From Panopea generosa (taxonomy: Eukaryota; Mollusca; Bivalvia; Adapedonta; Hiatellidae): 64,000 nt of DNA. Within the stretch, counting starts at the first letter, position 1; each line of letters opens with the position of its first letter. The notes beneath the pieces are model-generated. The model searched no databases, had not been told where the DNA came from, and saw only the letters and a list, made by a program, of their open reading frames with translations. Positions 14,421 through 64,000 of this stretch are shown here, in pieces. The position numbers were made by a program, and so were the translations under genes. The stretch is taken from assembly GCA_029582155.1 (NCBI GenBank), contig CM055899.1, positions 78,527,719 to 78,591,718 of the forward strand, given 5' to 3'.

Positions 14421-15987
14421 TAGCCTTATGTGTTTTTAATTAGGAAATTAAATGCAGTAAATCTATATAGTTCATTTACGCAGATTGCAGTGGAAATGTT
14501 AATATATACTCATATAATGCAATCATCAAAATGTCAGCGTTACACATATTTTGGGCCATGCTTTGATCCGGTGCGGCTCAGCTGTGTCATTTACCAGCTA
14601 CAATTCAAAATGGCGAGTTAAAAAAAATGTCAACAAATCTGGATCGTTTCTTCGGCGGAAGTAATTAAGGTAAAACACGAGTCAAAGATGTATCAAAATA
14701 TGTCTTACAGCACCACATTTTAAAGGGTACACAAATTACGATGTTCACAAATATTGAAATCTGTTGTCTTGAGTTTTGATGTCAAACTTCAAAGTGGTTA
14801 CAGACACTAGCGACAGTGAATAATGTACAAACATGCAGTGTGAAACGTTTATCAATGGAACAATAATATACCTCAGCGAGCTGTTTGCTTGTATTTAATT
14901 ACATGACTTAATGAGAAACAGAGGGACAGTGCCAAGTAGACTAATTTCCGTTTACTTTTCGTTCGTTTGCAGCCAGTCTAGGACTCAAACCCGGGACCCT
15001 TCATTTACAGGGCGAATGCTCTACCGTCTGAGCTAACTGAACCTACATACATTTCTCTCCTAGTAGGTTACGAACACACTGTGACAGACACCGGTGGCCG
15101 GAGTTTTTGTTTATAGCAACGGCTGGTTGCCCTCTTTGCTTACATGGAAAGTCCCCAAATGAGAGCCAAGCTCTTATTTATAACCTCTTGAAAATGTCCA
15201 CCTGACCTGATACGATCAATGGCTAAGGACTTGGAGGGGTCCCGCAGCTGGGCTAACAACTCAGAACAGGCACGGTTCACCGACAACCAATCGCTATCGA
15301 ATCCGGTAAATCGTGCAAGTCTGACTGAGAGCACCTGCTCACCGGACCTGTCAAAAGTCGGCAGCCCTTGATACACAACTAAAGTAAACATGTAACGTAA
15401 GTTAAAATGCACAATATTGCATTTAGTATAAACTTTCAGCAATTTCATCATGACAAGGATATAATATAGGTTTATGAATAAAGGTCTCGCTTTCATGAAA
15501 GTTACCATAAAGTGAGACCAGTTCAGACGATCACAATGACCTCTAATCCACATGTTGTATATCAAATCTTTTTATATAAATAAGTAATCTGTCTACAATA
15601 GTTATATAAATAACCATAAGATTTACACAGCAATACTCATCAACTGGTATGACAATAGACAATTGTATAGGAATGACATAACTCAGTTATCGATACTTTT
15701 AACAACAACAGACAACTGTCAAACGGAGAGTTTTACTCCTCAAATGTATTATATAAACTGTTTAATAGTGACCTTCAGTATAATAAGAAGTGGTCTAAAT
15801 ATTCATTAGTTCAGTGTATAAATATTGACTTTAATTTATTATTGTAAGTTATTTTGTTAAATTAGTTATGATTCTTACAATATATATATATCATATATTC
15901 ACTGCTGGATCACATATATCTGCTGATTCATTTTCATCATGTTTTCACTGCTGAATCATTTAAGCATTTTTTCTTGCTTGATAAATC
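14421..15987. other. Intergenic DNA with one tRNA-like relic
   Basis: Apart from the tRNA-like block at 14971-15045 I see no supported gene. The minus-strand open frame at 15140-15565 has no recognisable domain. Confidence 0.45.
14971..15045 (-). repeat. tRNA-like SINE head or tRNA pseudogene
   Basis: On the minus strand the stretch reads GTTAGCTCAGACGGTAGAGC, a near-perfect D arm with internal A box. It continues through an anticodon-like CCTGTAAAT region to a B-box-like GGGTTTGAGTCCTAG. The acceptor stem pairs poorly and the T stem is mismatched, so it is more likely a SINE head or pseudogene than a working tRNA. Confidence 0.55.
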
Positions 15988-45706: not shown

Positions 45707-45721
45707 GGGTAAGTACGGACA
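45707..45721 (+). repeat. Outer inverted repeat, left
   Basis: GGGTAAGTACGGACA is the exact reverse complement of 63735-63749. Inward of it, a diverged match continues for about 50 bases (TAGGGGTAGT.../TAGGAAAAGT..., both reaching AAGTACAG). Confidence 0.7.
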
Positions 45722-45901
45722 ATAGGGGTAGTACCGACGGTATCAATTAACAAGCAAGTACAGCGCCTACCCTGTCTTTACATCCTACATGTCTTGTTCT
45801 ATGTATATAACAAAACATATCACCTCATCCGGGTATGGTAGGGTAGTTTTAGTTTGTGACATAAACAGATCATGCACGCTCAGATGACACCTACTTCCTT
45901 T

Positions 45902-45942
45902 TGCACCTGTCATTATTTTGCCCGCCCGGGGGGGCGGCGGGC
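45902..45942 (+). repeat. Inner inverted repeat, left (GC-rich)
   Basis: TGCACCTGTCATTATTTTGC, then CCGCCC, a run of seven G, and CGGCGGGC. The same string in reverse complement, with the G run expanded to 30, forms 62161-62224. It lies just upstream of the SAM-domain gene. Confidence 0.85.
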
Positions 45943-46157
45943 ATACACGGGGCTTTAGACAGAACACCATTCCTGAAAGGCGGGAATTTGACAAACTTAT
46001 TGAATCCGGGTACCGGGAAATAGACTTTGGCCGGTTTTTACATCCCGGGGATCGGGAATTTCAACGCCACAAAATAAAAAAGGGGAGTAACCGCGAAAAG
46101 TCGAAAGACGACGGCGATATTTTTATTCGTGTTTTTCTAGCAGCAGACAGCGCATGC

Positions 46158-46245
46158 ATGATGGATGACATATCGAGTTTTTCTGTCGAGAAAATTGTGG
46201 GATGGGGCGAGAAGATTGCCCCAGAAATAGGAAGAATATTCAAAG
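46158..46245 (+). CDS. SAM gene, coding exon A
   Basis: It encodes MMDDISSFSVEKIVGWGEKI and APEIGRIFK, the first half of a SAM domain. The donor AAAG|GTATAC is in phase 1. The frame is open upstream to 45918, but that part is GC-rich and repeat-derived, so I prefer the ATG at 46158 (or 46161). Confidence 0.7.
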
Positions 46246-46259
46246 GTATACAGGGATTG

Positions 46260-46509
46260 TGTTGTGTTTGTGGTATACACAGGAACACATAATAATACTA
46301 TTGAAGTAATGGAACTAAAATGAACGACACAAGGCGTGTGCTCTAACTAAGGTATCAAAGTAGCAAGTGATTCATGGTATGGAAACGCATGTAATTATAG
46401 AGGCAAATTATAAGAGTAGTTCTTATTCTAAGTAAAGGGAAGTAACTACAACATAGAATATGCTAAAGAGTAATCATGAGTTATGAACACATGAATAGAT
46501 AATACAACA
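46260..46509 (-). repeat. 3' LTR of the gypsy element
   Basis: 250 bp; identical to the other LTR except about two base changes and the absence of a 14-bp segment (GTTTAATGCTCAGT-like). It begins TGTTGTGTTTGTGG and ends ATACAACA on the plus strand. Confidence 0.95.
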
Positions 46510-46780
46510 TCTCCTTTCTTATGAAAATGAATGAACAATTCTTATGAATGAAATTCTTTGTATGTTACATTACAAATTACTATCAAAATAATTAATCCAA
46601 CGCGTGTGGCAACATGTGGAGTTTAATTATGTCCGTAATGTCTCATTAGTTCCACTTAATTACTATGTCCAGATAACACTTAAACAACGTGGTGGGAATC
46701 TGTCAGTTCTTGTAAATTAATAGCCACTGACTGTTGATTTAGCATTGCACTGAACTCTAAATGTGAGAGATTATCTAGTT

Positions 46781-48109
46781 TCACAAAGATTCTATTATTT
46801 TTGGCTTAACTGATCTGCCATATCTTGTCACATAAACATTTGGTTGTAAACATGAATTTGATGCATTTGCTGATAGTTCAGGTGGCGTAATGCTATTTTC
46901 ACTGGGCTGGGAATTTACATTCTGGTAATCAGTGATCAGATTTTCTTCATTTTCTGTATCTGGTGAATGAGATTCACAGGGGTTTGAGCTAGAATTTAAT
47001 GGTGGTACATGTATGTCTGATTTCTGGTTTGTTTCTGCTGGGGGTGAATGGGGGTATTGTGATGATGTATTTGTTTTCAGTAAATGACGCCTGTTCCTAC
47101 AGTATTCTCCACCTTCAGGTGTACGTACGGTATACGAACGATTGTTGTGTTTTTCTATCACAACTGCGGGTTTCCAAGTTCCGTGTTTAATCCTAACTGG
47201 TTCTCCAATCTTAAGGGATTGTAAAGATTTCGCATTTTTGTCGTAATACTGTTTCTGTTTAGTTTTTTCTTTGTACAGTTTTTCTCTTACTGTCTTGGGA
47301 TTTGGGGTACTTGGAATCAGCTGTTTAGGATCAGTAGGTAAGAGCGACCTTATTTTCCTTCCCATTAACAATTCAGCTGGGGAAAAACCAGAGTTTAGTG
47401 GGGTTGCCCGGTATTCTAGCAATGCTACTGAAAGTTCTGTACCGGACTGTTTGGACTTTTTGATCATTTGTTTAGCTATCTTGACGCAAGATTCAGCTAA
47501 AACATTGGACTGTGCATAGTGTGGAGAGGATCGAACATGGTTAATGTCCCAATCTCTTACAAAGTCCTGAAAATGTTGCGATGTGTAGTAACTAGCTCCG
47601 TCTGTCACTAGTTTAGTTGGAATCCCGTGATGGGCATACCAAGTTTTCATGTGCTTAATTACACAAGAGCTGTTTGTGTTGTGTAATTTCCCTAATTCAA
47701 AATAGTTAGAGTAGTAGTCACATACCAGAAGATAATCTTGACCATCTAATGTGAATACATCAGAGCCTACAGTTTGCCAGGGGTACTCTGGGATTTCATG
47801 AGATACCAGAGGTTCCTTGGGGTTTGAACATCTGTGTTCAATGCATATTTCGCAATTACCAACATGGTTGGTAATATCGGCAGTAATGTTTGGCCAAAAC
47901 ATTGTATTTCTAGCGCGTCTCAGACATTTCTCAATTCCAAAGTGACCAGTATGTAGAATGTTAAGCATACTTGTTCTTAATTTCGAAGGAATGATTAACC
48001 TTTGACCCTTGAAGATAATGTCGTCCATGACACTGAGCTCATCTCTATAAGTCCAGTAATCATGTAGCTGAGTAGGGCAATCTGAGCGCTTTTCCGGCCA
48101 ACCTGACAA
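46781..48109 (-). CDS. Gypsy integrase portion of the polyprotein
   Basis: 442 codons, in frame with the upstream part (26 codons separate the TAA from the nominal start, so this is a continuation, not a separate gene). An HHCC-type zinc-binding region (HTGHFGIEKCLRRARNTMFW...CEICIEH) comes first. Catalytic D, D and E lie in GSDVF, VTDGASYY and NVLAESCVK; the residues around the second and third positions differ from the usual DNG and NGLAE patterns. A GPY/F-like module (EPVRIKHGTWKPAVVIEK) follows, then a Ser/Pro-rich tail. Confidence 0.9.
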   Translation of the reverse strand: MSGWPEKRSDCPTQLHDYWTYRDELSVMDDIIFKGQRLIIPSKLRTSMLNILHTGHFGIEKCLRRARNTMFWPNITADITNHVGNCEICIEHRCSNPKEPLVSHEIPEYPWQTVGSDVFTLDGQDYLLVCDYYSNYFELGKLHNTNSSCVIKHMKTWYAHHGIPTKLVTDGASYYTSQHFQDFVRDWDINHVRSSPHYAQSNVLAESCVKIAKQMIKKSKQSGTELSVALLEYRATPLNSGFSPAELLMGRKIRSLLPTDPKQLIPSTPNPKTVREKLYKEKTKQKQYYDKNAKSLQSLKIGEPVRIKHGTWKPAVVIEKHNNRSYTVRTPEGGEYCRNRRHLLKTNTSSQYPHSPPAETNQKSDIHVPPLNSSSNPCESHSPDTENEENLITDYQNVNSQPSENSITPPELSANASNSCLQPNVYVTRYGRSVKPKIIESL

Positions 48110-48184
48110 AATAACCTGTTTTAGATGTACTAACTCAGGGTCTTGACCTGTGTGTAATCTTATCTCGTGTAACTTTCTGTCACT

Positions 48185-50809
48185 TTACGGCAAGTTTGTT
48201 GTGACAAAATGTACATGAAGGTTTGTTGCTTCGGACAGTTCTGGATATGTGTTGGGTAGAAATTTTCTTGAGAGGGTATCAGTCAGGGGTATCTGAGTTC
48301 CTGGTCGGTGCTCTAAAGCGAAGTCATAACCTTGTAGTTGTAACATCATACGCTGTAACCTAGCTGGTGCTACATAGATTGCTTTTTTCATGACTGCTAG
48401 AAGCGGTAAATGGTCAGTATGAACTGTTATATGGCGACCATATACATATTGTCTAAACCTAGTCATGCCAAATAGAATAGCGTATAGCTCCTTTTCTATT
48501 TGTGCCCAATTTATCTCAGATTGTGTAAGTGACTTGCTTGCGTAAGCTATTGGCTTACCGTCTTGTAACAGTGTTGCGCCTAGACCAAATTTTGAACTAT
48601 CACATTGCAAAACAATGTGTTTTGTGGGGTCAAAATATGACAGTATAGGACCTGGTGTTTGGGTTAATATGTCTTTCACTTTCTGAAAAGCCTTAACCTG
48701 AGGTTCTTGCCAGTGAAAAACAACATCTTTCTTTAGTACTTGTCGGAGGGGTTGTGTGACCTCTGACAGGTTTTGGGCAGATCTTGATAGGTATACAACC
48801 ATGCCTAAGATTTTTTCGAGTTCTGGCTTGTCTTTGGGAGGTTCCATATCTCTGATTGCAGATATTTTCTCAGGGTCGGGTTTGAGCCCTTGGGAGGACA
48901 GAACATGACCAAAATATCGGACTTCCGATATTCCTACTTCTAATTTGTCAGCATTCAAACGAATATGTTTTTCACGACATCTTTCAAGGACATTCCTTAA
49001 GTTTTCATCATGCTCCTTTACCGTGTCTCCCCAGACTAGGATGTCGTCAACAATGACGCTACAACCTTTAAGACCTTCCAGGCATTCATCCATTTCACGC
49101 TGGAATTCATCTTGTGATGACCTTAGACCCATGGGAGTACGAAGGTATCTGTAACGGCCCAAAAATGTATTGAACGTTGTAAGGTACGATGATTTGTCGT
49201 CAAGTAATAAACTCCAGCAGCCTGATGTACAGTCAAGCTTTGTGAAAACCTTAGCAGTTGAGAGCTGGGGTAGGATATCATCCAGGGTTTTCATTGGGTA
49301 ATGTGGTCTTGAGATAGCTTTGTTAAGGTCTTTAGGATCTATGCAGATTCGAACCTTGTCTGAACCTGGCTTGTTAACTACTACCATTGAATTGACCCAT
49401 TGTGTTGGAGTGTTAACCTTGGCTATGATGCCAGCCTTTTCCATGTTTTCTAGTTCCTTGCGAACTTTGTCCTGAATGGCTACAGGGACACGTCTGGGAG
49501 GATGTACTACAGGCGTACAATGTTTATCTACTTTAATAGAACATTTCCCAGGAAGACGACCAATACCACGAAAAAGTGCATTGTATTGTGTCAAAACAGT
49601 ATCCTTAGTGAGTGGTGTACTGGGGGTATCTACAGACATCACAATCTTAATCAAATTAAATTCAATGCAGGTTTGGAGACCGAGGATTGGTGATCTATCT
49701 GTACGAACGACATAGAAATCAACTTCTTCAGAGTGTGACTTGTATCTACATGTTAATGTGATACTACCAAGTACATTCAAGTTTGCACCATTGTATGCGG
49801 TTAGCTTGCAATTAGCTTTCTTTAGGGAGGCTTTTATGTTGAGTGTTTGCCAATTTTTTTCTGTCAAAATGTTGCAACTGGCACAAGTGTCTAATTTAAA
49901 AGGAATTGGTGTATATTTGGGACCAACCTGAATATCAGCAAATACCTGATTGTCCTTTGAATTAATAACATCCACGTGAAAATCATCACTGTCACTTTCA
50001 TTATACTCCCCGTTGTTCCTAATGTCATGAACATGACGTTTCGTTTTGGCACGGCACACAGTTTGAAAGTGATTCCATTTTTTACAAAATAAGCACTGTT
50101 TGCCTTTAGCTGGGCATACTGGGTGTGTCCGTTTCTGTCCACAATTTCCACATTTGGTGTTGTTTATGTCCCTTTTGCTGTGGTGTTCTGGATTGCGGGT
50201 GGTATTCCTATGTTTGGTGTGGCTCTTGTTCCCCTTCCAGTGTGGCTGCTTGACATCGCTGACATCATGTTGTCTTTCCATCGATTTCAGCTGTGTCTGA
50301 GAATATTCATAGGTTTGTGCTATTTGAATAGCTTTGTCCATGGATAATCTATCACCTTCCGTAATAAGTTTTTCGCGGATTTTGTTGGAACTTACTCCGA
50401 AAACTATTCTGTCTCGGATCATCTCATCCCGTTTATCATACTGGCAGTCAATGGCTGCAATTTTCAGTTTTGTGATGAAATCTTCAATAGACAATTCACC
50501 TTGGCATATATTGTTAAACTGAAAATGTTTAAATACAGAGTTAAGTTTGGGTTGAACGTATTCCCCAAATTTCTTGAACAATGTGTCCAGCTTCTTATTA
50601 TCCTCTGCGGTTAAATTCCACGATTTATGGATATCTCGTCCCTTCTGACCAATCCATAAAAGTAAGTATGTGCATTTCGTTTCTTCATCTTTATCCTTTA
50701 AAGGACCGTTGAAGATAAGATCTACATGATCTTTATATTGTTGCCATGCTTCAGGCAAGTTTGTGGAAGTCCAGTCCACTTTTGGTGTTGGTACACCGTT
50801 GAGTTCCAT
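48185..50809 (-). CDS. Gypsy gag-protease-RT-RNase H polyprotein
   Basis: 874 codons. The gag region spans residues 1-200, followed by two zinc knuckles (the second CLFCKKWNHFQTVC fits CX2CX4HX4C). The protease site reads KLDTCASCNIL, where D-T-G is expected, so the active-site glycine codon appears replaced by Cys. RT follows, with FTKLDCTSG and the catalytic IVDDILVWG. RNase H has acidic positions in CDSSKFGLGA, IEKELYAI and HTDHLP. It ends at a TAA (48185-48187) after which the same frame continues into the integrase part, so this is one polyprotein split by a single stop. Confidence 0.95.
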   Translation of the reverse strand: MELNGVPTPKVDWTSTNLPEAWQQYKDHVDLIFNGPLKDKDEETKCTYLLLWIGQKGRDIHKSWNLTAEDNKKLDTLFKKFGEYVQPKLNSVFKHFQFNNICQGELSIEDFITKLKIAAIDCQYDKRDEMIRDRIVFGVSSNKIREKLITEGDRLSMDKAIQIAQTYEYSQTQLKSMERQHDVSDVKQPHWKGNKSHTKHRNTTRNPEHHSKRDINNTKCGNCGQKRTHPVCPAKGKQCLFCKKWNHFQTVCRAKTKRHVHDIRNNGEYNESDSDDFHVDVINSKDNQVFADIQVGPKYTPIPFKLDTCASCNILTEKNWQTLNIKASLKKANCKLTAYNGANLNVLGSITLTCRYKSHSEEVDFYVVRTDRSPILGLQTCIEFNLIKIVMSVDTPSTPLTKDTVLTQYNALFRGIGRLPGKCSIKVDKHCTPVVHPPRRVPVAIQDKVRKELENMEKAGIIAKVNTPTQWVNSMVVVNKPGSDKVRICIDPKDLNKAISRPHYPMKTLDDILPQLSTAKVFTKLDCTSGCWSLLLDDKSSYLTTFNTFLGRYRYLRTPMGLRSSQDEFQREMDECLEGLKGCSVIVDDILVWGDTVKEHDENLRNVLERCREKHIRLNADKLEVGISEVRYFGHVLSSQGLKPDPEKISAIRDMEPPKDKPELEKILGMVVYLSRSAQNLSEVTQPLRQVLKKDVVFHWQEPQVKAFQKVKDILTQTPGPILSYFDPTKHIVLQCDSSKFGLGATLLQDGKPIAYASKSLTQSEINWAQIEKELYAILFGMTRFRQYVYGRHITVHTDHLPLLAVMKKAIYVAPARLQRMMLQLQGYDFALEHRPGTQIPLTDTLSRKFLPNTYPELSEATNLHVHFVTTNLP

Positions 50810-50903
50810 TGTAATTTCAATTTATGAATGTTGATAAATCTGTGATTAATCCAAAATAATAATGCACAAATGTCACAAATTCAAACTGTAACTTCTGACA
50901 CCA

Positions 50904-51167
50904 TGTTGTGTTTGTGGTATACACAGGAACACATAATAATACTATTGAAGTAATGGAACTAAAATGAACGACACAAGGCATGTGCTCTAACTAAGGTGTT
51001 TAATGCTCAGTATCAAAGTAGCAAGTGATTCATGGTATGGAAACGCATGTAATTATAGAGGCAAATTATAAGAGTAGTTCCTATTCTAAGTAAAGGGAAG
51101 TAACTACAACATAGAATATGCTAAAGAGTAATCATGAGTTATGAACACATGAATAGATAATACAACA
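50904..51167 (-). repeat. 5' LTR of the gypsy element
   Basis: 264 bp, with the 14-bp segment present. It is followed on the minus strand by the tRNA-Leu-type primer-binding site (50886-50903). Confidence 0.95.
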
Positions 51168-52204
51168 GATTGTATTCTCCATTTATTTTCACCTATACCC
51201 AGACATAGTATGCATGGGGCCGAGCGGTTTTCATGCTTGTCATCTGTTTTCGCGAATTAGACCCATTTTAATATTTTGCGAGTCTGAGAGGCGTCACATG
51301 AAACTCACTATATGTCGTATTAATAATACTAAATCCACAAAAGAACGTTCACTATACCTGTAGAATATAAACGATTACAGCAGAAAACTTCTAAAAATAA
51401 GCATTCAACTTTCATGCTTTCAAAAATATTTGACTGAAACTTTGTATGGATATTCTTTGGGACTACCCCACAGGGCCTCCCCTGGCATTCGCAATTTCGC
51501 CAAATAGGAAAGATTTTGAAATGTGGTGAAAAGAATACTCAAATGTCAACAAGAGTTTAGTGATTTCAGCTATTATTTCAATGTGTTGGCTGAGAATTCA
51601 TGAAAATGACAAAATTTGGCAAACAATGTTCAAAAGCCAGGGGAAGCCCTGCGGCTCTACTCACTTTCAAGGCCGATAATTCTGAATGCAAATAAATTTA
51701 TTATTTTTAGAATTATATGAATTTTAAAAACTTTTTATCGCTTATATTTTTTATTTTTTTATCTGTTTTATTCATCTATAATACTGTTTAACTGGATTAT
51801 TTATTTATTTGTATATTCATGGGTTAAAGTTTTCAGGACTGGTTCTGAACTTCAGGATTTCAGAAATAGCCATTTTTAGCTCTTATTGTATACATACATA
51901 TAGCATGAATTTGTATCTGGTGAAATCATTAGTTAGTTGAAAGTTCAAGCTTTTCAAAAGTATAAATATCAATAACTTAAAGAATAAAGATACAGTTTGT
52001 CTTTTTTATTTGTGTAACATAAAATACTGGTACTGGTCAATTTTGACTTGTGTTCCAATTCATTATGATTTAGCCTTTGAAACCCTGGTTTTGTCACACT
52101 CGGTGGTGCATCTTGTTTTGGAATGTTCTGGTTTAAGACTTAAAGCTTAACTAAACTCCTTTTAACAGCATTTATGTGTGTGTGTCTTTGCAGAGAATGA
52201 CATA

Positions 52205-54077
52205 CGAGGGGTTATCCAGAAGTTCGTGGACAAATGTTATAAAAAATTATTGTGCACACGTTCATAAGTGTAAATTACATAACTTAAACATTTATGTATT
52301 ACAAATCTATAGTAAGTAATTTATTGTTTTTCATGCAACCATTATAAAGTTATAGTAACCATAGTAACGTACATGCACATGAAGTGCCGCAGCTCAATTT
52401 TTTTAATAAACTCAAATTTATACATGTTAATTATTAAAAATATATTTCTTCAATTCTGCGGGAAAACATACATGTTTGACGCAACGTCATTAACGTCTTT
52501 AAATTTAACATCATTTGTTGTTTTACGCGCACACATTCGAATCTAGCGTATATTTCATTGAGGAGGTCTTCGCCAGAGTGCGTAAAAATGGCGTCTGAAG
52601 AACGGTTAAAACAACGAGCAGCAATACAATTCTGCGTAAATCTCGGACATACACCGATACAGACGATGGAACTTCTAAACAGAGCCTCAAAGAAACCTGC
52701 TGTCGCACGTTCTCTAATCTACAAATGGCATAAGCAATACAGTGATGGCAGGGAAACCATAATGGACGATGAAAGGTGTGGTCGCCCAACGTCAAAATCA
52801 CGTCAAAGTGATGTTAAATTAGTCAAAGATCTTCTAGACAAGGACCGCCGAGTAACAATACATGAACTATGCCAGGATTTGGATATGGGCTACGGCACCG
52901 CTCATAGAATCATCAAAGATGAATTAAAAATGAGCCGAATAAGTGCGCGATGGGTTCCCCGATTATTAAAAGATCATGAAATGGAACGCCGGGTAACAGA
53001 ATCTAGGAAGTTTCTAGCGAGATACGCAAAAGAGGGCGACTCATTCCTAAATAGGATTATAACTACCGACGAGACATGGTTGTTTTATTATGATCCGGAA
53101 ACGAAACAACAGTCAAGTCAGTGGAAATCAACCGATTCGCCGCCACCGAAAAAAGCCAGAATGTCCAAATCGTTAGGAAAACATATGTTCATTGTCTTCT
53201 TCGACATCAACGGAATAATCCTGAGCCATGCCGTTCCGAAAGGCCAGTCTGTCAACGCTTTGTATTATTCAAAGGTACCGATTTTATAACAAACATATAT
53301 TTTACTTATAATTTAACAATAGTTTTAAAAATAAAATAAACAACGTATTACATGTTCTTTAAAAATACAAAATTCTATATAATTTATATATTTACAGCTT
53401 TAGCAGATTAAGGAACGTGACATTTAAATAATTAATACTCGATTTTCTTGTTTTTGTATTTTCGTATAAATTTCAGGTCCTTCGCCGGCATCTTGCTAGA
53501 GCAATAACTAGGAAGCACCCAACTGGTTATGAGGGAGGGTGGACTTATAATACATCAGGACAACGCACCAGCTCACTCATCGAGAGAAGTGCAGACGGCA
53601 ATTGAAATACAAATGGAGGCAGAAGTTCTTCCACATCCGCCGTACTCCCCAGATCTCGCACCGTGTGATTTCGCACTCTTTCCGAAATTAAAGTGCGAAT
53701 TGAAGGGCAAACATTTTAATAACTTAAAAAGAACTTCAAACGGAATCTAATTCCATTTTGTATTCATACCCATCGGACTGGTACAAGCAAGTTTTTCATC
53801 AGTGGGTAGAACGCCACCGCAAATGTATAGAAAATAGCGGTGCTTACTTTGAGAAGAATTGACGTCGCGACGTCGCCTTCAAAATTGACCTGGGGCACAT
53901 CACTGTACATGATGTATATCGAATGTATGTAAATTATTTGTTATATTGTGTATTTTATTTAAAATTTGTATACAACTTACACTGAGATTGAATACTATAA
54001 ACTGAAAATATTACACATATATAAGATGTAGTTTTTATTTTATAGCATGTGTCCACGAACTTCTGGATAACCCCTCA
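52205..54077 (+). mobile_element. Mariner-type DNA transposon inserted in a coding exon
   Basis: 1873 bp, with terminal inverted repeats CGAGGGGTTATCCAGAAGTT (left) and AACTTCTGGATAACCCCTCA (right, last base differing), inside a TA duplication (52203-52204, 54078-54079). The transposase region (52588 to about 53862) contains an apparent 202-base intron and at least two frame breaks. The near-identity of the two inverted repeats suggests a fairly recent insertion. Confidence 0.95.
52588..53862 (+). pseudogene. Mariner transposase, intron-split and frameshifted
   Basis: The start MASEERLKQRAAIQFCVNLG begins a mariner helix-turn-helix. A second HTH follows, and the first catalytic Asp is in ITTDETWLFYYDP. 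At 53275 the frame meets AAAG|GTACCG, and it resumes after TTTCAG at 53476 in phase 0 (SK|VLRR), so a spliceable intron is plausible. Frame breaks lie at about 53520 (CACCC region) and about 53727 (an extra A in AAAAAG). The remaining motifs are HQDNAPAH and YSPDLAPCDF. I count 35 residues between the last two Asp, one more than the usual DD34D. It ends with Y-F-E-K-N then TGA at about 53862. It is unlikely to be active. Confidence 0.85.
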
Positions 54078-54675
54078 TAGATGGCCAAGGACTACTGGCT
54101 GTAGTAGCTGATGACACATTGTTCAAGGAATTAGTTCCGAAAATCGTTCTTAGAGCCAAGTTGAAGCAACAGTTAAACGTCACTGAACAGCAGGTGAGGA
54201 TCATTATCAGTGAGCATTAAAAGGTTTTAAGCTCAACTATTCAAAGAAAAGATAGAGGTATTGTCATACCCTTATCAAATACTGGTTTGTATATTCAAAT
54301 TTATTATTTAAACACATAAGACAGGTTAGAATGAAACCTTCATTATGAAGGTTGATTCCTGTCTCCTCCATGTTGAATTACAAGACCTAGTTACCTCTCT
54401 GGGACACAGATTTTGACAGTTGTCAAGACTTCAGCTGCAAAGAATCAGTGTATATTTAAACTATAATATATACCAAAGATCAAGTCCTTCTTGTGCCAAC
54501 TTTGGGACAGTTTGAATCACACAAATTTTATTCTGGGACATTTACAGCAATATAAACAGGGCTGTCTATAGTTTTTCTAATACCTTTAAAGACTTCAATA
54601 GCTTTTGGATATGCAGGTAGAAATTTTTTACCTGTCCAAGCTTTCACGACTGTGAGAGATGTTTTTGTCTTCCAG

Positions 54676-54789
54676 AAATGTCAAGAGGCTGGCACAACAT
54701 GCACTACAGACCAGACTGTGAAGCAGAAACAGTACCAAAAACTTATCGTAAAGGATGGGAAATGGCAATTTGAAACTGTTCAGATTTCG
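54676..54789 (+). CDS. SAM gene, coding exon C
   Basis: 38 codons lie between acceptor TGTCTTCCAG and donor TCG|GTAATT, phase 0 at both ends. The sequence begins KCQEAGTTCTTDQTVKQKQY and ends KDGKWQFETVQIS. No known domain. Confidence 0.75.
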
Positions 54790-55604
54790 GTAATTATTAA
54801 ATAGCTTTATGATTGCCCATTAATGAAATGAAATGTAGAATACATGTATATTAAGAGATATTTGAAGAAAGTGACAATTTATTGTCTTCACCCAGCTGAA
54901 TATGGGTCATTATTTGGGTACATAATTAAGAGAGTTACCAAGTAGAGTATTATAATAAATAAGATACAGTGTACAAGACTCCCAAAAAGCCTTGGCTCCA
55001 GTCACCTTTTTAGAGTACTATAAGTACTATAGTCTAGTATAGTGCAGTATAGTATACTAGCATGATAAAAAAGTTATAACTTTGATATTTGTGAATTGAT
55101 GTCATTAATATTTTGACACAACAACCCTTTGGGCAAGACCTTTTAAATTACATAATGATCTGTAACCTTGACATCTAATTAACATTGACCTTCAAGGTCA
55201 AATTCTAAAAAAAATGTGATAAATTGCCATTACATTGTTGTAACTTGAAATTATGATTATCTGTCACATTTGAACACACTAACCTTTTGGACAAGATTTC
55301 ATTGGAACTCAGTTACATGACCTGGACCCCCCAAATGACCTTAACTTTGAAGATTAAATAAGATCAGATAATAACTTAATTTTTTCCAGGGTTATGTCAT
55401 GTTACAAATGGTTTTTTTTCGTGCAAAAGCTTTACATAGATACAGACAGCTGTAACATTATTGGGCATACTTCGGGGGCATTTGTCACCCTAATGACAGC
55501 CCTTGTTAAACATTATTAAACTGAGACCACGGGGACTGAGAATTTGAGAAAAGCCCAGCTTGCTGTCCTTGAGCAGCTTTTGTTTGTTAACATTGTCATC
55601 GAAA

Positions 55605-55800
55605 GCCGGGTCCAGTTAGCTCAGTCAGTACAGTGTTAGACTGTTAATCTCTGATTCGTGAGTTCGAGCCCCAGCCCGGCCACATAACTTATGTGGGGAT
55701 TGGTCATGAAAGAATTTGATTACATCTTTTGAAAGATAAATTCAATTGGGTTCTATGACAATTAGTTTCGACTTCCAGAGACGTTTCAATTTTTTCTGGG
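55605..55800 (+). mobile_element. tRNA-headed SINE in a SAM-gene intron
   Basis: The tRNA-like head (55605-55683) has an acceptor stem GCCGGG/CCCGGC. It also has A-box-like TTAGCTCAGTCAGTA, an anticodon loop CTGTTAA (GTT) and B box GAGTTCGAGCCCC. The D stem does not pair, so it is not a working tRNA. A roughly 110-base body follows, ending in a T run. Confidence 0.65.
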
Positions 55801-56028
55801 TCGTAAGTGGGGTTGGGATATTCTTAGTCACCTTGTCCATAATGTAAAGTTACAGTGTTAAGGCTTTGTCTAATTGTTTGTAGGTTTGTTATTATTGATA
55901 AAACTACATTACTAGCACCTGTGTACTACATTAGTATCTACTGTCTTAGCACTAGTAATCTATAGAATCATGCATACAACTTAGGTGAGCCGAGCGGGTA
56001 TAATGTGGTCTTGTTCCTATTTTTTCAG

Positions 56029-59000
56029 ATACCAGACGTTAAGAAGACTGTTGAGGAATTGGCGCAGATATTTAAACCAAAACCAGGTATCACACCATGG
56101 CAGTTGGCAGTGAATGAAGCAGCAAGTCAGCTAGTAGGAAATGACCCATCATTATTACAGGACCGACAATCACTTTTTTCAAGAGCACGAGAAGAAGCTG
56201 CGCTGACCTATGACTTCAAGAAAGGAAAATCAAGAAGTGTTCAAATGGCAAAAACATCTCAGCAACACAACAATAACCAATCTGATGGAAGTCAGAAACA
56301 TGCTCCACATACAAACAGTGATTTAAGAAATATGAGAATTAAACAGTTAAAGGAAGAAATAGAATTCCAAGACCATGAAACAATTAAACTGAAAAAGAAC
56401 ATAACAAGATGTGAAGCTGTCATGGATCATGAAAGATGTTTGTCGTTAAGAAAGGAAATACAGAGAATTAGCTCTGAGAAAAATTTAAAGCAGTTAGAGC
56501 TTCATGAGCTTGAGAGAAGCAATTACAAGAGCAACTGGTACTTTAAGAATAGAGCAGGGAAAAGCAGTACTACATGTAGTAAAAGCATTAAAAAGACAAA
56601 GAAAGAACAAAACAGGTGTGAAAAGAACAAACGGGAGATATCTTCTTTCTTCAAAAGCTCTAGTGATAGTGGAAGTGTTGATGAAGAATCAGCCAAGAGC
56701 ATCACTGATGAAATGGCGACAGATAGTACACCTGCCAAGAGCGTCACTGATGAAATGGTGACAAACCGCATACCCCGCAAGAGCGTCACTGATGAAATGG
56801 CAACAAACCCTAATGAAATGGCGACAGGCAGCACACCCCCCAAGAGTGTCACTGATGAAATGGCAACAGACAGCATACCGCCCAAGAGCATCACTGATGG
56901 ATTGGTGACAGACAGCATAACCCCCAAGAATGTCACTGATGAAATGGCCACAGACATCATACCCCCCAAGAGTGTCATTGATGGATTGGTGACAGACAGC
57001 ATAACCCTCAAGAGCATCACTGATGAAATGGCAACAAACCCTGATGAAATGGCGACAGGCAGCACACCCCCCAAGAGTGTCACTGATGAAATGGCAACAG
57101 ACAGCATACCGCCCAAGAGCGTCACTGATGGATTGGTGACAGGCAGCATAACCCCCAAGAGTGTCACTGGTGGATTGGTGACAGACAGCATAACCCCCAA
57201 GAATGTCACTGATGAAATGGTGACAGACAGCATAACCCCCAAAGAGTGTCACTAATGGATTGGTGACAGACAGCATACCCCCCAAGAGTGTCACTGATGG
57301 ATTGGTGACAGACAGCATACCCCCCAAGAGTGTCACTGATTGATTGGTGACAGACAGCATACCGCCAAAGAGTGTCACTGATGGATTGGTGACAGACAGC
57401 ATACCCCCCAAGAGTGTCACTGATGGATTGGTGACAGACAGCATAACCCCCAAGAGTGTCACTGATGGATTGGTGACAGACAGCATAACCCCCAAGAATG
57501 TCACTGATGAAATGGCGACAGACATCATACCCCCCAAGAGTGTCACTGATGGATTGGTGACAGACAGCATAACCCCCAAGAGCTTGACTGATGAAATGGC
57601 AACAAACCCTGATGAAATGGCGACAGGCAGCACACCCCCCCAAGAGTGTCACTGATGAAATGGCAACAGACAGCATACCGCCCAAGAGCGTCACTGATGG
57701 ATTGGTGACAGACAGCATAACCCCCAAGAGTGTCACTGGTGGATTGGTGACAGACAGCATAACCCCCAAGAATGTCACTGATGAAATGGCCACAGACATC
57801 ATACCCCCCAAGAGTGTCACTGATGGATTGGTGACAAACAGCATACCCCCCCAAGAGTGTCACTGATGGATTGGTGACAGACAGCATACCCCCCCAAGAG
57901 TGTCACTGATGGATTGGTGACAGACAGCATACCGCCAAAGAGTGTCACTGATGGATTGGTGACAGACAGCATACCCCCCAAGAGTGTCACTGATGGATTG
58001 GTGACAGACAGCACACCCCCCAAGAGTGTCACTGATGAAATGGCAACAGACAGCATACCGCCCAAGAGCATCACTGATGGATTGGTGACAGACAGCATAA
58101 CCCCCAAGAATGTCACTGATGAAATGGCCACAGACATCATACCCCCCAAGAGTGTCATTGATGGATTGGTGACAGACAGCATAACCCTCAAGAGCGTCAC
58201 TGATGAAATGGCAACAAACCCTGATGAAATGGCGACAGGCAGCACACCCCCCAAGAGTGTCACTGATGAAATGGCAACAGACAGCATACCGCCCAAGAGC
58301 GTCACTGATGGATTGGTGACAGGCAGCATAACCCCCAAGAGTGTCACTGGTGGATTGGTGACAGACAGCATAACCCCCAAGAATGTCACTGATGAAATGG
58401 TGACAGACAGCATAACCCCCAAAGAGTGTCACTAATGGATTGGTGACAGACAGCATACCCCCCAAGAGTGTCACTGATGGATTGGTGACAGACAGCATAC
58501 CCCCCAAGAGTGTCACTGATTGATTGGTGACAGACAGCATACCGCCAAAGAGTGTCACTGATGGATTGGTGACAGACAGCATACCCCCCAAGAGTGTCAC
58601 TGATGGATTGGTGACAGACAGCATAACCCCCAAGAGTGTCACTGATGGATTGGTGACAGACAGCATAACCCCCAAGAATGTCACTGATGAAATGGCGACA
58701 GACATCATACCCCCCAAGAGTGTCACTGATGGATTGGTGACAGACAGCATAACCCCCAAGAGCTTGACTGATGAAATGGCAACAAACCCTGATGAAATGG
58801 CGACAGGCAGCACACCCCCCCAAGAGTGTCACTGATGAAATGGCAACAGACAGCATACCGCCCAAGAGCGTCACTGATGGATTGGTGACAGACAGCATAA
58901 CCCCCAAGAGTGTCACTGGTGGATTGGTGACAGACAGCATAACCCCCAAGAATGTCACTGATGAAATGGCCACAGACATCATACCCCCCAAGAGTGTCAC

Positions 59001-59491
59001 TGATGGATTGGTGACAAACAGCATACCCCCCAAGAGTGTCACTGATGGATTGGTGACAGACAGCATACCCCCCCAAGAGTGTCACTGATGGATTGGTGAC
59101 AGACAGCATACCGCCAAAGAGTGTCACTGATGGATTGGTGACAGACAGCATACCCCCCAAGAGTGTCACTGATGGATTGGTGACAGACAGCATAACCCCC
59201 AAGAGTGTCACTGATGGATTGGTGACAGATAACACACACCCCAAGAGTGTCACTGATGAAATGGTGACAGACAATACTCACCCCGAGAGTGTCACCGATG
59301 AAATGGCAACAGACAGCGCTCTCGCAAGCACACATTTTCATTGAAGCCCCTTCTCACTTGTAATGACATGGAGGGGCTTAAAAAATACTTACAGAGTGTG
59401 AAAGGGTTGTCAAAATACACTGAAAATAATGGTGTTACATTTTCTGTTTTAATAAATATGGATCTGTCTGATTATGTAAAAGTTTCAGAAG
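56029..59491 (+). pseudogene. SAM gene, giant repeat exon D
   Basis: It starts after TTTTTTCAG in phase 0. Residues 1-70 (IPDVKKTVEELAQIFKPKPG, ITPWQLAVNEAASQLVG) precede a K/E/R-rich probable coiled coil (RIKQLKEEIEFQDHETIKLK) and a basic Ser-rich stretch. The SVTDG/SVTDEM repeat begins at about 56690. The first frame stops at 57255. Seven +1 changes (about 57243, 57640, 57850, 57890, 58423, 58817, 59070) and TGA codons at about 57341 and 58521 break it. The last 50 codons (LKPLLTCNDMEGLKKYLQSV ... DLSDYVKVSE) return to the starting frame and end at GAAG|GTAACG. An alternative is that most of the repeat is spliced out; I saw no clear sites. Confidence 0.55.
56690..59335 (+). repeat. 42-bp coding minisatellite with 1180-bp higher-order duplication
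   Basis: Roughly 60 units of about 42 bp (AAGAGTGTCACTGATGGATT, GGTGACAGACAGCATAACCC, CC) encode SVTDGLVTDSITPK and variants (SVTDEMATDSIPPK, NPDEMATGSTPP). A block from about 56832 to 58011 is repeated from 58012 to about 59190 at an offset of 1180 bases. It carries the same variants, the same extra A, the same extra C and the same TGA. Long open frames also run on the minus strand but are by-products. Confidence 0.9.
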
Positions 59492-59663
59492 GTAACGAGG
59501 CTGTGAATCTTTGCTATCGTTCTCATCTTCAGTGGTCTTGTCTTGCTTTACGGTCATGACTTGCTATAATTAAAACTAAATTGAATCTGCAGAAAATATG
59601 TTTAGGCTTTGTTCCAATCTGATAAATGTGAATGTATTAAAATGTTGATTTATATTTAAACAG

Positions 59664-59753
59664 GTGAACATTTGGTTGGATCATCTGACGAGTGTTGCTG
59701 CCAACCGAAAAAGGGGCAAGGCAAAGGCAGCCGAGACACGGTCTTCGAAAAAG
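59664..59753 (+). CDS. SAM gene, coding exon F
   Basis: A 90-base exon lies between acceptor TTAAACAG and donor AAAG|GTATTT. In phase 1 it reads GEHLVGSSDECCCQPKKGQG then KGSRDTVFEK. A reading in another frame is also open, so the translation rests on phase agreement with its neighbours. Confidence 0.55.
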
Positions 59754-60687
59754 GTATTTGGGCACATTATGAGTGGAATTTTGTAAAGATTGCCTCAACA
59801 TTAAATTAGTCTGAGGCCAAAAAATCTCTTTTTTTTCTGAAAGCCATACAAAACATAAGGGGTATTGCACTTCTGTGGTCTAAATGTGTGTATTTTATCA
59901 TTGACATGGTGGGGAATCATTGACATGGTGACCACGTAACATGGTATCTTAAAGTCCCATTATGCATTTGAAAACTTTATTTGAAATGAAAGAGTATTCA
60001 CTCCAATGACATCCAGTGAAATTCTGATGTAAAAATTTGCATTGGATTTCTTGAAGACATGAAAGAAAATATTCGAAATACACTATAAATATATTGCGCT
60101 AATGTAAGCGCAAGTGTAATAATTGGAGGTATGTTTGGATGAAAAAATAATTTCTGAAGGAAAGTAATGCGAAAATGAGCCATTTTCTTCCATAAGAGGA
60201 TGAGTATGATCTGTTTATTCAGTAATTGAAATTTTACTCACAAATGCATTATGTTCCTTTAAACTTAAAATTGGTGGATTCTCCTGAAAAAGTACAATGC
60301 TGTTTATAATGTCACTGGTGGCTACTGAAAGTCCTGTCAGTTACGCATACTCTGCATACTCTCAACAAAATACTTTCTGTTAAACAAAAGATATTGACAA
60401 AAATTCTCACGTGGACACCTGAATCTGACAGATTATCAATTGCTGCGATACCATGTCATGTGGTCTCAATATCATGTGATTCCCCACCATGATTGCAAGA
60501 TTAGTTTGATAGACTACTAGCAGATTTTTGAGAAAATAATGTGTTTTCAACAAAAACAAAAAACAAAATTCAGTACCATTTTTGTTCCAATAGAATTAAA
60601 AACAACCTATTGTTTTATCTATCAAAATATATGTTGGAAATCTTTGTTAAGTTGTGCTACCAAATTATTAATTATTAAACAATCCAG

Positions 60688-60876
60688 GCTCAAGCTCCTA
60701 TCCAGGCTCAAGCTCCTATCAAGGCTCAAGTTCCTATCCAGGCTCCGGCTCCTATCCAGGCTCAAGCTCCTATCCAGGCTCAAGCTCCTATCAAGGCTCA
60801 AGCTCCTATCCAGGCTCAAGCTCCTATCCAGGCTCAAAGGCTCAAGCTCCTATCCAGGCTCCGGCTCCTATCCAGG
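60688..60876 (+). repeat. 18-bp minisatellite inside exon G
   Basis: About ten units of CAGGCTCAAGCTCCTATC occur, with AAGGCTCAAG and CAGGCTCCGG variants. One partial unit (CAGGCTCA then AAGGCTCAAG) produces the frame switch noted for the exon. Confidence 0.9.
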
Positions 60877-60900
60877 CTCTTGAGGAGAGTGCACCAGATT
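60688..60900 (+). CDS. SAM gene, coding exon G, GSSSYPG repeat
   Basis: 213 bases follow TTAAACAATCCAG. In phase 1 the 18-bp unit reads GSSSYP/GSSSYQ about eight times, then AQAPIQAPAPIQALEESAPD, ending at T|GTGAGT. An 8-base slip inside the repeat changes which frame of the unit is read, yet the whole stays open. Low-complexity Ser/Tyr/Gly; function unknown. Confidence 0.6.
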
Positions 60901-61270
60901 GTGAGTTTTTTTTTGTAGCTTTGTGTTCATGGTGAGCTATGATTGTCCAATCTTCATGTAACTTGGTCAGAATGTATGGCTGAAATCTCGGCCAAGTTCA
61001 AAGCTGGGTCATGTTGGGTCAAAAACTATGTCACAAGGTCAAATGTTAGAAAAAGAATGTGAACACATTAGAGGCCACACTTTTGGCCCATTCTTCATGA
61101 AACTTAGTGTGAATGTTCATCTCTATGAAATCTAGATCATGTTCGAAATTGGGTCATGAGGGGTCAAAAATTAAGTCTCTAGGTAAAATCTTAGAACATT
61201 TTTGGTCCAATTTAAATGAAACTTAGTCAAGTTTGAAACCTTAAAGATTATAAAATTCACTCTATTTCAG
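60901..61270 (+). repeat. Interspersed repeat in last SAM-gene intron
   Basis: The phrases GGTGAGCTATGATTGTCCAA, TCTTCATGTAACTTGGTCAG, GGTCATGTTGGGTCAAAAAC and a second related unit (CCATTCTTCATGAAACTTAG) mark a common mollusc-type non-coding repeat. A relative lies at 61384-61580. Confidence 0.5.
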
Positions 61271-61344
61271 GTATAAATGTGGAAGTGTCCAGGTTTGGCC
61301 GCAGGAGGAGGAAGAATGTCCTTTTTAGTGACTTTTTGTGTTAA
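61271..61344 (+). CDS. SAM gene, terminal coding exon H
   Basis: It starts after CTCTATTTCAG and reads C-INVEVSRFGRRRRKNVLF-SDFLC to TAA at 61342-61344. The Arg-rich block could be a nuclear or nucleic-acid-binding signal. AAAATAAAATAAG follows within 20 bases as a likely polyadenylation signal. Confidence 0.7.
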
Positions 61345-62160
61345 ATTCATTGTTAAAATAAAATAAGAAGTTTAAGTGTTGTAACTTTTTAACTCACCTG
61401 AGCACAAAGCTATTGTGATCGGTCAATGTCTGTCTTCGCAAGTCTGATGTCCTCAACTTTTAGTGTTAGCACTCTAAGAGGCCACAGATATGGTTCAATC
61501 GTAATTAAACTTGGTCAGCATGCTTACCATCTTTATAGAAACTGGGTCATGTGGAGTTAGAAACTAGGTTACTGGGTTTATTTTGTAGCTTAACTATTCT
61601 AGGAAAATAAGAGCTTACACGATCATTTGTGCGTCTGTGTCCGCATTGGTTAAAGTTTTTTAAAAGTCTTATACATTCTATACTATCAAAGATATTCAAC
61701 TTAAACTAGGTACGGGTATTTAGTGGGACTACTTTTACCATACTAAGAAGGCCCATAACCCTGGATGCATTTTTTTCAGAATTATGCCCCTTATTTACTT
61801 GAAAATACCCACTTTATAAGTTTCTTCCAAGTCTAATCATTTGAATACTATCAAAGTTATTTAACTGAAATTGATACATATATATATTCATTGGGACTAT
61901 ATCTACCTTACTTCAAATGCCCATTACTCTGGATTCATTATTTTCCTAATGATGTGCCTTTGTACTTATATTTTTTTCATTGTTTTTCTGATAGCAGCTT
62001 TATTTATTGATTGATCTTTTAGATATTTACCCTCTCCCATACCTCCGGGGCATTTGATGCACCAAGCAGGCTCAAGGGTGGGGATTTAGACAAAAATGGT
62101 TGTCTCTAGGGTGGGGATTTAGATTTCAAACATTTCAAGATGTCAAATTCCACTGGGTCA
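61345..62160. other. Non-coding DNA with repeat fragments
   Basis: It holds a relative of the repeat above (61384-61580). Near 62045-62130 it holds GC-richer phrases CCGGGGCATTTGATGCACC and two copies of AGGGTGGGGATTTAGA next to the GC-rich inverted repeat. GGAATTTGACA (minus strand) also occurs at the matching distance inside the left inverted repeat. No gene was seen. Confidence 0.5.
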
Positions 62161-62168
62161 GCCCGCCG

Positions 62169-62200
<32 letters not shown>

Positions 62201-62224
62201 GCGGGCAAAATAATGACAGGTGCA
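62161..62224 (-). repeat. Inner inverted repeat, right, with C30 run
   Basis: The reverse complement of 45902-45942: TGCACCTGTCATTATTTTGC then CCGCCC on the minus strand. The homopolymer is a run of about 30 C at 62169-62198. The run could form i-motif/G4 structures and its length is unreliable in any assembly. Confidence 0.85.
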
Positions 62225-62464
62225 TTTCAGATAAATACAAAAATTTGTCACGCAGGAACATTTGAAACAGAGAATCAAAATATCATTTCATGTAAGTTTA
62301 TTTACTTTTTGATTTATATATTGTTTGTAACATATCAGTATGCATATTTCAGCTTTTAATAAAATGTCTATTTTTGCCAAAAACAATTGCAATCGATAAA
62401 ATTAATGATTTTCTGATGTGTCTGTATTTTCTCTACTATTCTTTTTAACAGGAAAACTACGGAC

Positions 62465-62755
62465 ATGTCCCTACCAGCCAGTTTATCAATGAGAGAAGTG
62501 ACAGGCCGCTTTAACTATACTACTGTGCAACATCAATGTACTGGACTAATAACTCATTATTACAAACATCAGTACATGTATGACCATTCAGACATTGCTG
62601 TACTCTACCTTCTGTTACTGGAGAGAATAAAAATCAGTCCTAGCGCACTTGCAATTATGTTCGATTACTGCAGCACTAATGAAAAGTGGATGACAACAGC
62701 ATTGCGTGGCTTGCCTCTTATTACATTAAGAAATCAAATGACAATATCGTAGCAA
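62465..62755 (+). CDS. Hypothetical 95-codon open frame
   Basis: It starts MSLPASLSMREVTGRFNYTT just after an acceptor-like TTTTTAACAG (62443-62452). It runs to TAG and has no domain I recognise. It lies between the inner inverted repeat and the psq relic. It could be an exon of the same element or chance. Confidence 0.25.
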
Positions 62756-62936
62756 TCTGCGAGGAAATAATTAAACACTCTTTGTAATATAAATTATCGC
62801 ACTGATATCTGAGTAAATTGTTATTATTAAATGAATAAAACATAAGTTACAAGACCTATGAATTGTGTTTATTTTGTTGAATTATTTGTTGTTTTAGAAC
62901 GTCAAATATATATGTTTACACGTACGGGGTAAAACC

Positions 62937-63620
62937 TTGAACTATCAAGACAAGCAACTTGAAGACACTATTAAAGCTGTCGAAGATTGCTCACTTTCAA
63001 TAAGGAAAGCCTCTGCATCATTTAGTGTCCCCAAGTCTACCATTGGTGATAGAATAAGTGGGAAGGATGACATGCATGTACAACGTGGCAGACCCAAGCA
63101 TATCCCTCGGGATACTGAAAATAAATTGTGGACGCTGTAAAGATGGCTTCAAGGTGAGGAATTGGCCTTACCAGAAAATAGGTAAGGAACGTCAGAATAA
63201 ATGAGTCCATGAATGCCACTGATTCAGTCAATGAATGATGAACCGGGAAGTTATCAGTAGCTACTTCAATGACTTAGTTGAAGGACTGAACATTGCAACA
63301 AAGCCTCGCATAATGATGCATCCAATGCATCGTACGTTACTACGTCAATTGATGGATTCATATTGCCGCAATTGACAACATTGTTTGATCAGTTGCTCAC
63401 AGAGACATGTTCACCATCTCGGGACAATTCATATGAACTGACATTAAATGAATTGGATAGTCCCGAAATCCAAAGCGATGTAGGATTACAGTCAGTCAGT
63501 GACGTTCTGGACTAAAGCGATCTGCAGCAACATTTTCAACTCATATCTGGAGGAAACTGCTCAGTACATACACTGACAGATCAGAACGGCCAACAAATCA
63601 CCGTGCCCTTTAGAATGTAA
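62937..63620 (+). pseudogene. Relic of a psq/pogo-type transposase or DNA-binding protein
   Basis: Residues 5-45 (DTIKAVEDCSLSIRKASASF, SVPKSTIGDRISGK) match the helix-turn-helix psq pattern typical of pogo-like transposases and of Pipsqueak proteins. After GRPKHIPRDTENKL the frame slips at about 63126. The next frame contains TGA and TAG. Later pieces (63239 onward EVISSYFNDLVEGLNI; 63350-63620 GFILPQLTTLFDQLL ... VGLQSVSDVLD) also look once-coding, with a TAA inside. No DDE domain remains. Confidence 0.65.
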
Positions 63621-63734
63621 AAAAAATACTAGAATCAGAATGTATAATTCTGTTGAAATATGAAATGTCTTTAAAAAGGTTTTACTATCTGTACTTTCCA
63701 TATGTGTTGTATCATGTCCACACTTTTCCTACTG

Positions 63735-63749
63735 TGTCCGTACTTACCC
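63735..63749 (-). repeat. Outer inverted repeat, right
   Basis: TGTCCGTACTTACCC, the exact reverse complement of 45707-45721. It stands 115 bases past the end of the psq relic, where a terminal inverted repeat of that element would be expected. Confidence 0.7.
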
Positions 63750-64000
63750 TTCTTTGATACTTTCTTTATAATGACTTTTTACAATATCTCGCACTCATAT
63801 CACCATTGAAAACCAGGGTCAAGTCTGTAGAAAATAATTTCCAAATGGCACATGTCAAACAACGTCAGTTATGCATTTGACAAATTACAATACTACGAGT
63901 TTAAAGCCTCTGGTGTACCCTACCCCATGAAAGAGTAAGGCTCAAACAAAATGTTTACACAAATATTCTCTTTTTTTCTACAAAAGCACCGTATAATTAT
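63750..64000. other. Non-coding flank, nothing recognised
   Basis: AT-rich DNA without supported features. Confidence 0.4.

Follow-up and report, generated by a model that had tools for sequence, protein, structure and literature searches.

A decayed copy of a probable cut-and-paste DNA transposon, with a spliced gene and an unclassified candidate transposase, in the bivalve Panopea generosa

Eukaryotic DNA transposons are grouped into about two dozen superfamilies, with 24 in Repbase (PMC12730594). PIF/Harbinger transposons duplicate a 5'-TWA-3' target (PMC4482050), and the PHIS groups NuwaI and NuwaII carry two open reading frames (ORFs). Academ elements are common in bivalves, where curated elements average 5565 bp, and AcademX produces duplications of 3 or 4 bp (PMC10045372, PMC10294476). 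CMC elements (CACTA/Mirage/Chapaev) produce duplications of 2–4 bp, and an animal element of 9.2 kb has been reported. Canonical Kolobok duplications are TTAA, and KolobokP, which is rich in molluscs, includes solo repeats with duplications of 3–4 or 4–5 bp (PMC9587614). We analyzed a 64,000-nucleotide window of the Panopea generosa genome (GCA_029582155.1, CM055899.1, positions 78,527,719 to 78,591,718; all positions below are those of the window). The initial annotation had described a SAM-domain gene enclosed by two nested pairs of inverted repeats in this window and proposed a large cargo-carrying transposon; both inverted pairs lie exactly where it placed them. We conclude that the stretch between the inner pair (45902–62224) is probably a decayed copy of a ~11-kb cut-and-paste-type DNA transposon that would have been autonomous ancestrally, with its second frame, ORF2, as an unclassified candidate transposase.

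The inner repeats are the ends of a family of copies. A search of the window's own genome (1.47 Gb) with the 23-base core of the inner repeat, allowing up to 3 mismatches, returned 23 matches, compared with none for the reversed control. Twenty of these formed 10 inverted pairs spaced 10.9–19.0 kb apart (two-ended copies of 10,887–18,987 bases), two were single ends of further copies (C5 at 32.09 Mb and C7), and one (C2, 3 mismatches) fell in a stretch without reported similarity to the element. The family comprises 12 copies, including the window copy, and these hold 22 of the 23 end matches; an ORF2 search of the genome agreed on the copy number (12 copies, in 18 pieces). Among paired copies, the seven that lack a large insertion measured 10,887–12,819 bases, and the end search, with 22 of its 23 matches in the 12 copies, found no short derivative. 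Copies C5a and C5c have the same left flank and therefore derive from a single insertion, either copied along with the DNA around it or doubled in the assembly. In C7, other sequence that by eye resembles a retroelement takes the place of the left end (L030:7250-7700).

All 10 two-ended copies are flanked by a matching 3-bp direct repeat (TTA in five, TAA in three, TAT and TTT in one each). The TAT copy (C4) sits in a TA repeat, where lengths of 1, 5 or 7 bp fit equally well. Two empty sites agree with the 3-bp length. For the window copy, the two flanks, joined with the insert removed, match a locus at C8:5.03 Mb that has a single TTT (81% identity over 194 columns; a paralogous, diverged relic). 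Right of the junction this alignment block extends for just 15 columns (11 identical), and homology resumes in further blocks from 62429 onward. The C19 copy lies in a tandem array with eight intact units of sequence ACAGTGATTTACTACTG; the unit that holds the copy has ACAGTGATTTA[element]TTACTACTG. Inverted ends in multiple copies, combined with a target duplication of fixed length, are hallmarks of a terminal inverted repeat (TIR) DNA transposon, and the family's anatomy is that of a DNA transposon inserting with a 3-bp stagger. The initial annotation had proposed to test whether the gene and both inverted pairs recur jointly with constant edges and to look for target duplications outside them; the gene and the inner pair do recur in this way at 10 complete sites, and every paired copy has target duplications just outside the inner repeats.

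The inner pair (45902–45942 and 62161–62224) is exact over 33 bases and 95% identical over 40, which makes it the longest exact inverted pair of the window; its core matched twice within the window and in none of 100 shuffles at the same mismatch limit. The outer pair, by comparison, is exact over 15 bases. Exact inverted pairs of at least 15 bases numbered 33 in the window against 5–10 in ten Markov versions, and 6 in a 19-kb segment against 0–3 in twenty Markov versions. Chance yields such pairs, so a single 15-base inverted pair is unremarkable by its length alone, in line with the fallback of the initial annotation that a host gene is flanked by repeats by coincidence. The gene and inner repeats, however, recur with identical edges at 10 complete sites, each bearing a target duplication; with the two empty sites, this leads us to reject the chance explanation, to which we give almost no credence.

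The outer 15-mers belong to something older. Allowing up to 3 mismatches, the outer 15-mer occurred four times in the window (shuffles averaged 0.68, and none of 100 reached four), as would be expected of a genuine motif iterated within an older repeat. A relic of the HTH_psq family in the right arm matched Pfam above its cut-off (E 2.2e-4, 21.3 bits, cut-off 20.4), bearing out the psq-type relic seen in the initial annotation. At C8, the sequence that surrounds the window insertion exists in uninterrupted form: this relative has AGGTAAGTACGGACG at its left edge, the exact outer 15-mer on the right, and three similar motifs, 20–29 bases apart, beside the latter. On the left its alignment begins at 45730, immediately inward of the outer 15-mer, and on the right its homology extends ~90 bases beyond the outer repeat. 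Together with the psq relic, this relative indicates that the outer repeats are motifs iterated close to the termini of an older psq/pogo-like element; to judge from the alignments, the transposon inserted into this older element. A 111-amino-acid open frame within the older element (62417–62752) has a diverged C8 counterpart and no Pfam match.

This bears on the boundary drawn in the initial annotation, a single ~18-kb composite element ending at the outer pair. The outer 15-mers are indeed exact and inverted, but the sequence just beyond the terminal TGCACC differs from copy to copy, and at C8 the outer motif occurs in a relative that lacks the inner element. This relative refutes the composite, which we consider highly improbable.

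Each end of the transposon has an unusual build. Twenty-one of 22 ends could be parsed into TGCACCTGTCATTATTTT followed by GCCCGCC, a G-rich tract and GGCGGGC; each ~41-bp TIR contains a 7-bp palindrome whose arms enclose a G tract that varies in length. The longest G run ranged from 4 to 34 among the parsed ends, which suggests that the G tract can grow at one end of a copy and remain short at the other; in the right end of the window copy, positions 62169–62198 are 30 consecutive C. A comparison of the first and last 2 kb of the C12 copy revealed a 42-bp inverted repeat as the only shared sequence and no terminal direct repeats.

The gene region between the ends is common to all 12 copies, which is most simply explained if it is the element's own. 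The window exons (Table 1) have counterparts in other copies, and GT/AG splice sites were present wherever the alignment reached them, consistent with the gene span of 46158–61344 proposed in the initial annotation. The donor GT of exon 1 is intact in 11 of 11 copies holding that exon; exon 9 retains its acceptor AG in 12/12 copies and its donor GT in 10/12, the other two having no match to the search string. The exon-2 acceptor is missing in C14. Joining exons 1–4 of C12 gives an open frame of 644 codons (ORF1), including the minisatellite. Exon 4 is open to its stop in two of the 12 copies (C12 and C7) and frame-broken in the window copy. The 42-bp minisatellite of exon 4 (56693–59317) differs in length and frame between copies. 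Part of ORF1 matches NCD2, known from NAB co-repressors (Pfam, 26.1 bits, cut-off 25). Pfam reported no SAM match for ORF1, whose SAM-like label was given by eye. In a PDB sequence search with the SAM-like part, the best chains were calmodulins (E 0.74 and 0.87) and L3MBTL3 (E 0.92; presumably the chain of its SAM domain), none of them significant.

The segment missing from the window copy holds ORF2. It is complete in ten other copies and partly deleted in C19, measuring 3,612–3,626 bases in nine measured copies, 3,264 in C19 owing to the deletion, and ~3.6 kb in C7. Stop-to-stop frames of ORF2 reach 942 codons, with the first Met at codon 23; the frame is free of stops over 942 codons in two of the 12 copies (C14 and C5c) and over 903 codons in a third. 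ORF2 runs on through short, Cys/His-containing exons with shared splice sites (CMLWFPGGPP..., GVELPPS..., VNIWLDH...) to the stop at 61342–61344 in the window. We propose ORF2 as the candidate transposase, probably of the RNase H/DDE type, and ORF1 as a putative accessory protein, since we found no other part of the element that could serve as the enzyme. A search of prokaryote genomes with ORF2 returned one bacterial stretch (L038), with no relative established, and among viral contigs and phages no useful relative was found. Uncharacterized proteins similar to ORF2 presumably exist in cnidarians and other animals.

Copies of the family are young. Mean pairwise divergence was 0.92% in intron 3 (12 copies), 0.60% in intron 8 (11 copies), 0.81% in the 3' part (12 copies) and 0.60% in ORF2 (10 copies), the window copy being the most diverged in intron 3 (1.7%) and the 3' part (1.5%). 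Stops apart, 65 variant codons of ORF2 were singletons and nine were shared; differences thus mostly private to one copy are as expected from a recent burst. The copies seem to have decayed once inserted, and individually they show little sign of selection.

Several results weigh against an autonomous element with ORF2 as its transposase. ORF2 had no Pfam match above cut-off; the best sub-threshold matches were DUF2605 for the intact frame (E 0.066) and DUF499 for one half of ORF2 in the C4 copy (E 7.5e-4, 17.9 bits, cut-off 23), and the downstream exons matched Cementoin only (E 0.0089, below its cut-off). A PDB sequence search with ORF2 gave nothing significant, and its DDE triad and RNase H fold are features that we infer rather than demonstrate. 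The ratio of nonsynonymous to synonymous polymorphism (pN/pS) over all copy pairs was 0.63, and 10 nonsense codons are spread over at least eight of the 11 ORF2-bearing copies, so the evidence for selection is weak. ORF1 and ORF2 lie in different frames, and none of the copies examined combines an open exon 4 (found in C12 and C7) with an open ORF2 (found in C14 and C5c); autonomy would therefore be a property of the ancestor that we infer. The folding energy of the terminal palindrome was no better than that of shuffles (z –0.25), which leaves a structural role for it a guess.

Comparison with described superfamilies yields partial likenesses. With PIF/Harbinger the element shares 3-bp duplications, conforming to TWA in 8/10 copies (the exceptions being TAT and TTT), and two ORFs, as in NuwaI and NuwaII. 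It differs in its size of ~11 kb and in that no Myb/SANT family was found by Pfam; up to E 5, Pfam likewise found no Harbinger-type transposase in the ORF1 start, ORF2 or downstream exons of the assembled copies. This likeness allows a second interpretation, close to the cargo proposed in the initial annotation: a non-autonomous element that captured host sequence and is moved in trans by a PIF/Harbinger transposase recognizing its ends. The TTA and TAA duplications (PMC4482050), the co-repressor association of the NCD2-like stretch, the failure of Pfam to match any frame scanned of the element itself to a known transposase family, and the lack of a copy open in both frames would all fit. Passive cargo, however, has no need of a ~900-codon frame, which is present whole or in part in 11 of the 12 copies, and the same gene region recurs in every copy with no short derivative among the end matches. 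Moreover, neither a separate host copy of the C-terminal part of ORF2 nor a diverged ORF2 paralogue was detected in the genome (the 11 matches from the best 13 candidates were all element copies; distant ones could escape). We regard capture and mobilization in trans as unlikely, and the gene between the inner repeats as most likely the element's own damaged gene rather than a passenger host gene.

The 3-bp duplications also lie within the 3 or 4 bp of AcademX, but the less-damaged form of the element (~11 kb) exceeds the reported average for curated bivalve Academ elements. The C5b copy contains a 7-kb insert (L014:1464-8460) with ends TAGGCTGGTAAA...TTTACCAGCCTA, a 3-bp GTA duplication and a 601-amino-acid ORF with ADNADHNVRTLDGHGTFHGMGII, which we take to be Academ-like; a single, indirect comparison of ORF2 with this ORF gave no detectable similarity (E 0.32). 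A 3-bp duplication falls inside the CMC range too, and a large CMC element is described from animals; the ends of our element, however, are TGCACC rather than CACTA or CCC, and its own frames scanned with Pfam gave no Transposase_21 match, on which assignment to CMC/CACTA would depend. The duplications differ from the 4-bp TTAA of Kolobok; they fall within the range of KolobokP solo repeats, from which the element differs in having no long terminal direct repeats (end-against-end comparison of C12). Elements of the pogo/psq type are present only as the older element hit by the transposon and are not part of it. The large size might also recall a Polinton-type, virus-like self-synthesizing element or a retroelement. 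We rejected both, as a most improbable pair, because scans of the element's own frames turned up no family of polymerases, integrases, capsid proteins or ATPases; the window copy does contain a reverse transcriptase, which belongs to the later gypsy.

In the window copy, the initial annotation had recognized one large element, ~11 kb long before gypsy and mariner entered. A single element carrying both insertions stands, while less-interrupted copies measure 10.9–12.8 kb; comparison with these copies shows that its ~11-kb reconstruction missed the loss of ~3.6 kb with the main open frame. Elsewhere in the window, several long minisatellites (units of 25, 40, 156 and 65 bp) cluster at 31140–38256, and a weak tRNA match lies on the minus strand at 14970–15042 (32.8 bits, gathering score 29).

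Table 1. Parts of the window copy, its later insertions and the older element around it.
Feature	Position	Strand	Details
Left arm of older psq/pogo-like element	45707..45901	+	Outer 15-mer at its edge; outside the transposon
Left target-site duplication	45899..45901		TTT, 3 bp
Left terminal inverted repeat	45902..45942	+	TGCACCTGTCATTATTTTGCCCGCC; C-G7-C, GGCGGGC
Exon 1 of the element's gene	46158..46245	+	SAM-like part, first half (by eye)
Later gypsy long terminal repeat (LTR) retrotransposon	46260..51167	-	LTRs 46260-46509 and 50904-51167; 5-bp duplication GATTG
Exon 2	52194..54193	+	SAM-like part, second half; split by mariner
Later mariner-type element	52205..54077	+	TA duplication; inside exon 2
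Exon 3	54676..54789	+	
Exon 4	56029..59344	+	NCD2-like stretch, coiled-coil-like stretch (by eye), 42-bp minisatellite 56693-59317
First codons of ORF2 (candidate transposase)	59368..59491	+	Remainder deleted in window copy
Internal deletion junction	59491..59492		~3.6 kb lost relative to other copies
Exon 8, downstream part	59664..59753	+	VNIWLDHLTSVAANRKRG...
Exon 9	60688..60899	+	18-bp repeat coding AQAPIQ...; acceptor AG and donor GT present
Last exon and stop codon	61271..61344	+	Stop at 61342-61344
Right terminal inverted repeat	62161..62224	-	G tract grown to 30
Right target-site duplication	62225..62227		TTT, 3 bp
Right arm of older psq/pogo-like element	62228..63838	+	HTH_psq relic 62931-63140; outer 15-mer 63735-63749; outside the transposon

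We hypothesize that ORF2 is the enzyme, probably of the RNase H/DDE type, and that ORF1 aids assembly or DNA recognition by oligomerizing. The two transposon ends would be brought together and then cut, and insertion at a TWA-like site with 3-bp staggered cuts would leave the 3-bp duplication. The window copy would have landed in the psq/pogo-like relic, lost the middle of its ORF2 and received the gypsy and mariner elements.

A literature search by motif strings and for SAM or unclassified transposons found no description of the element, with most subscription papers and Repbase lying outside the search, and the available portions of PMC10045372, PMC10294476, PMC9587614, PMC5718144, PMC12730594, PMC1636069 and PMC4482050 do not describe it. 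We tentatively entertain, at rather less than an even chance, that it belongs to a new superfamily of animal DNA transposons, as its first family to be described, characterized by a spliced ~11-kb element, a 3-bp TWA-type target, G-tract palindromes, a SAM-/NCD2-like ORF1, a transposase unrelated in sequence to known ones, and a recent entry, possibly from another species. A new superfamily is here a possibility rather than a result, as the comparisons cover Pfam, PDB sequences and the window's own genome. An element with clean ends and duplications, very young copies and no recognizable transposase would either add a superfamily or show how far a known transposase may drift. Given such young copies, some with an open ORF2, activity is directly testable. 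The family also carries a caution for the annotation of animal genomes, in which a gene with SAM-like and coiled-coil-like parts can belong to a transposon.

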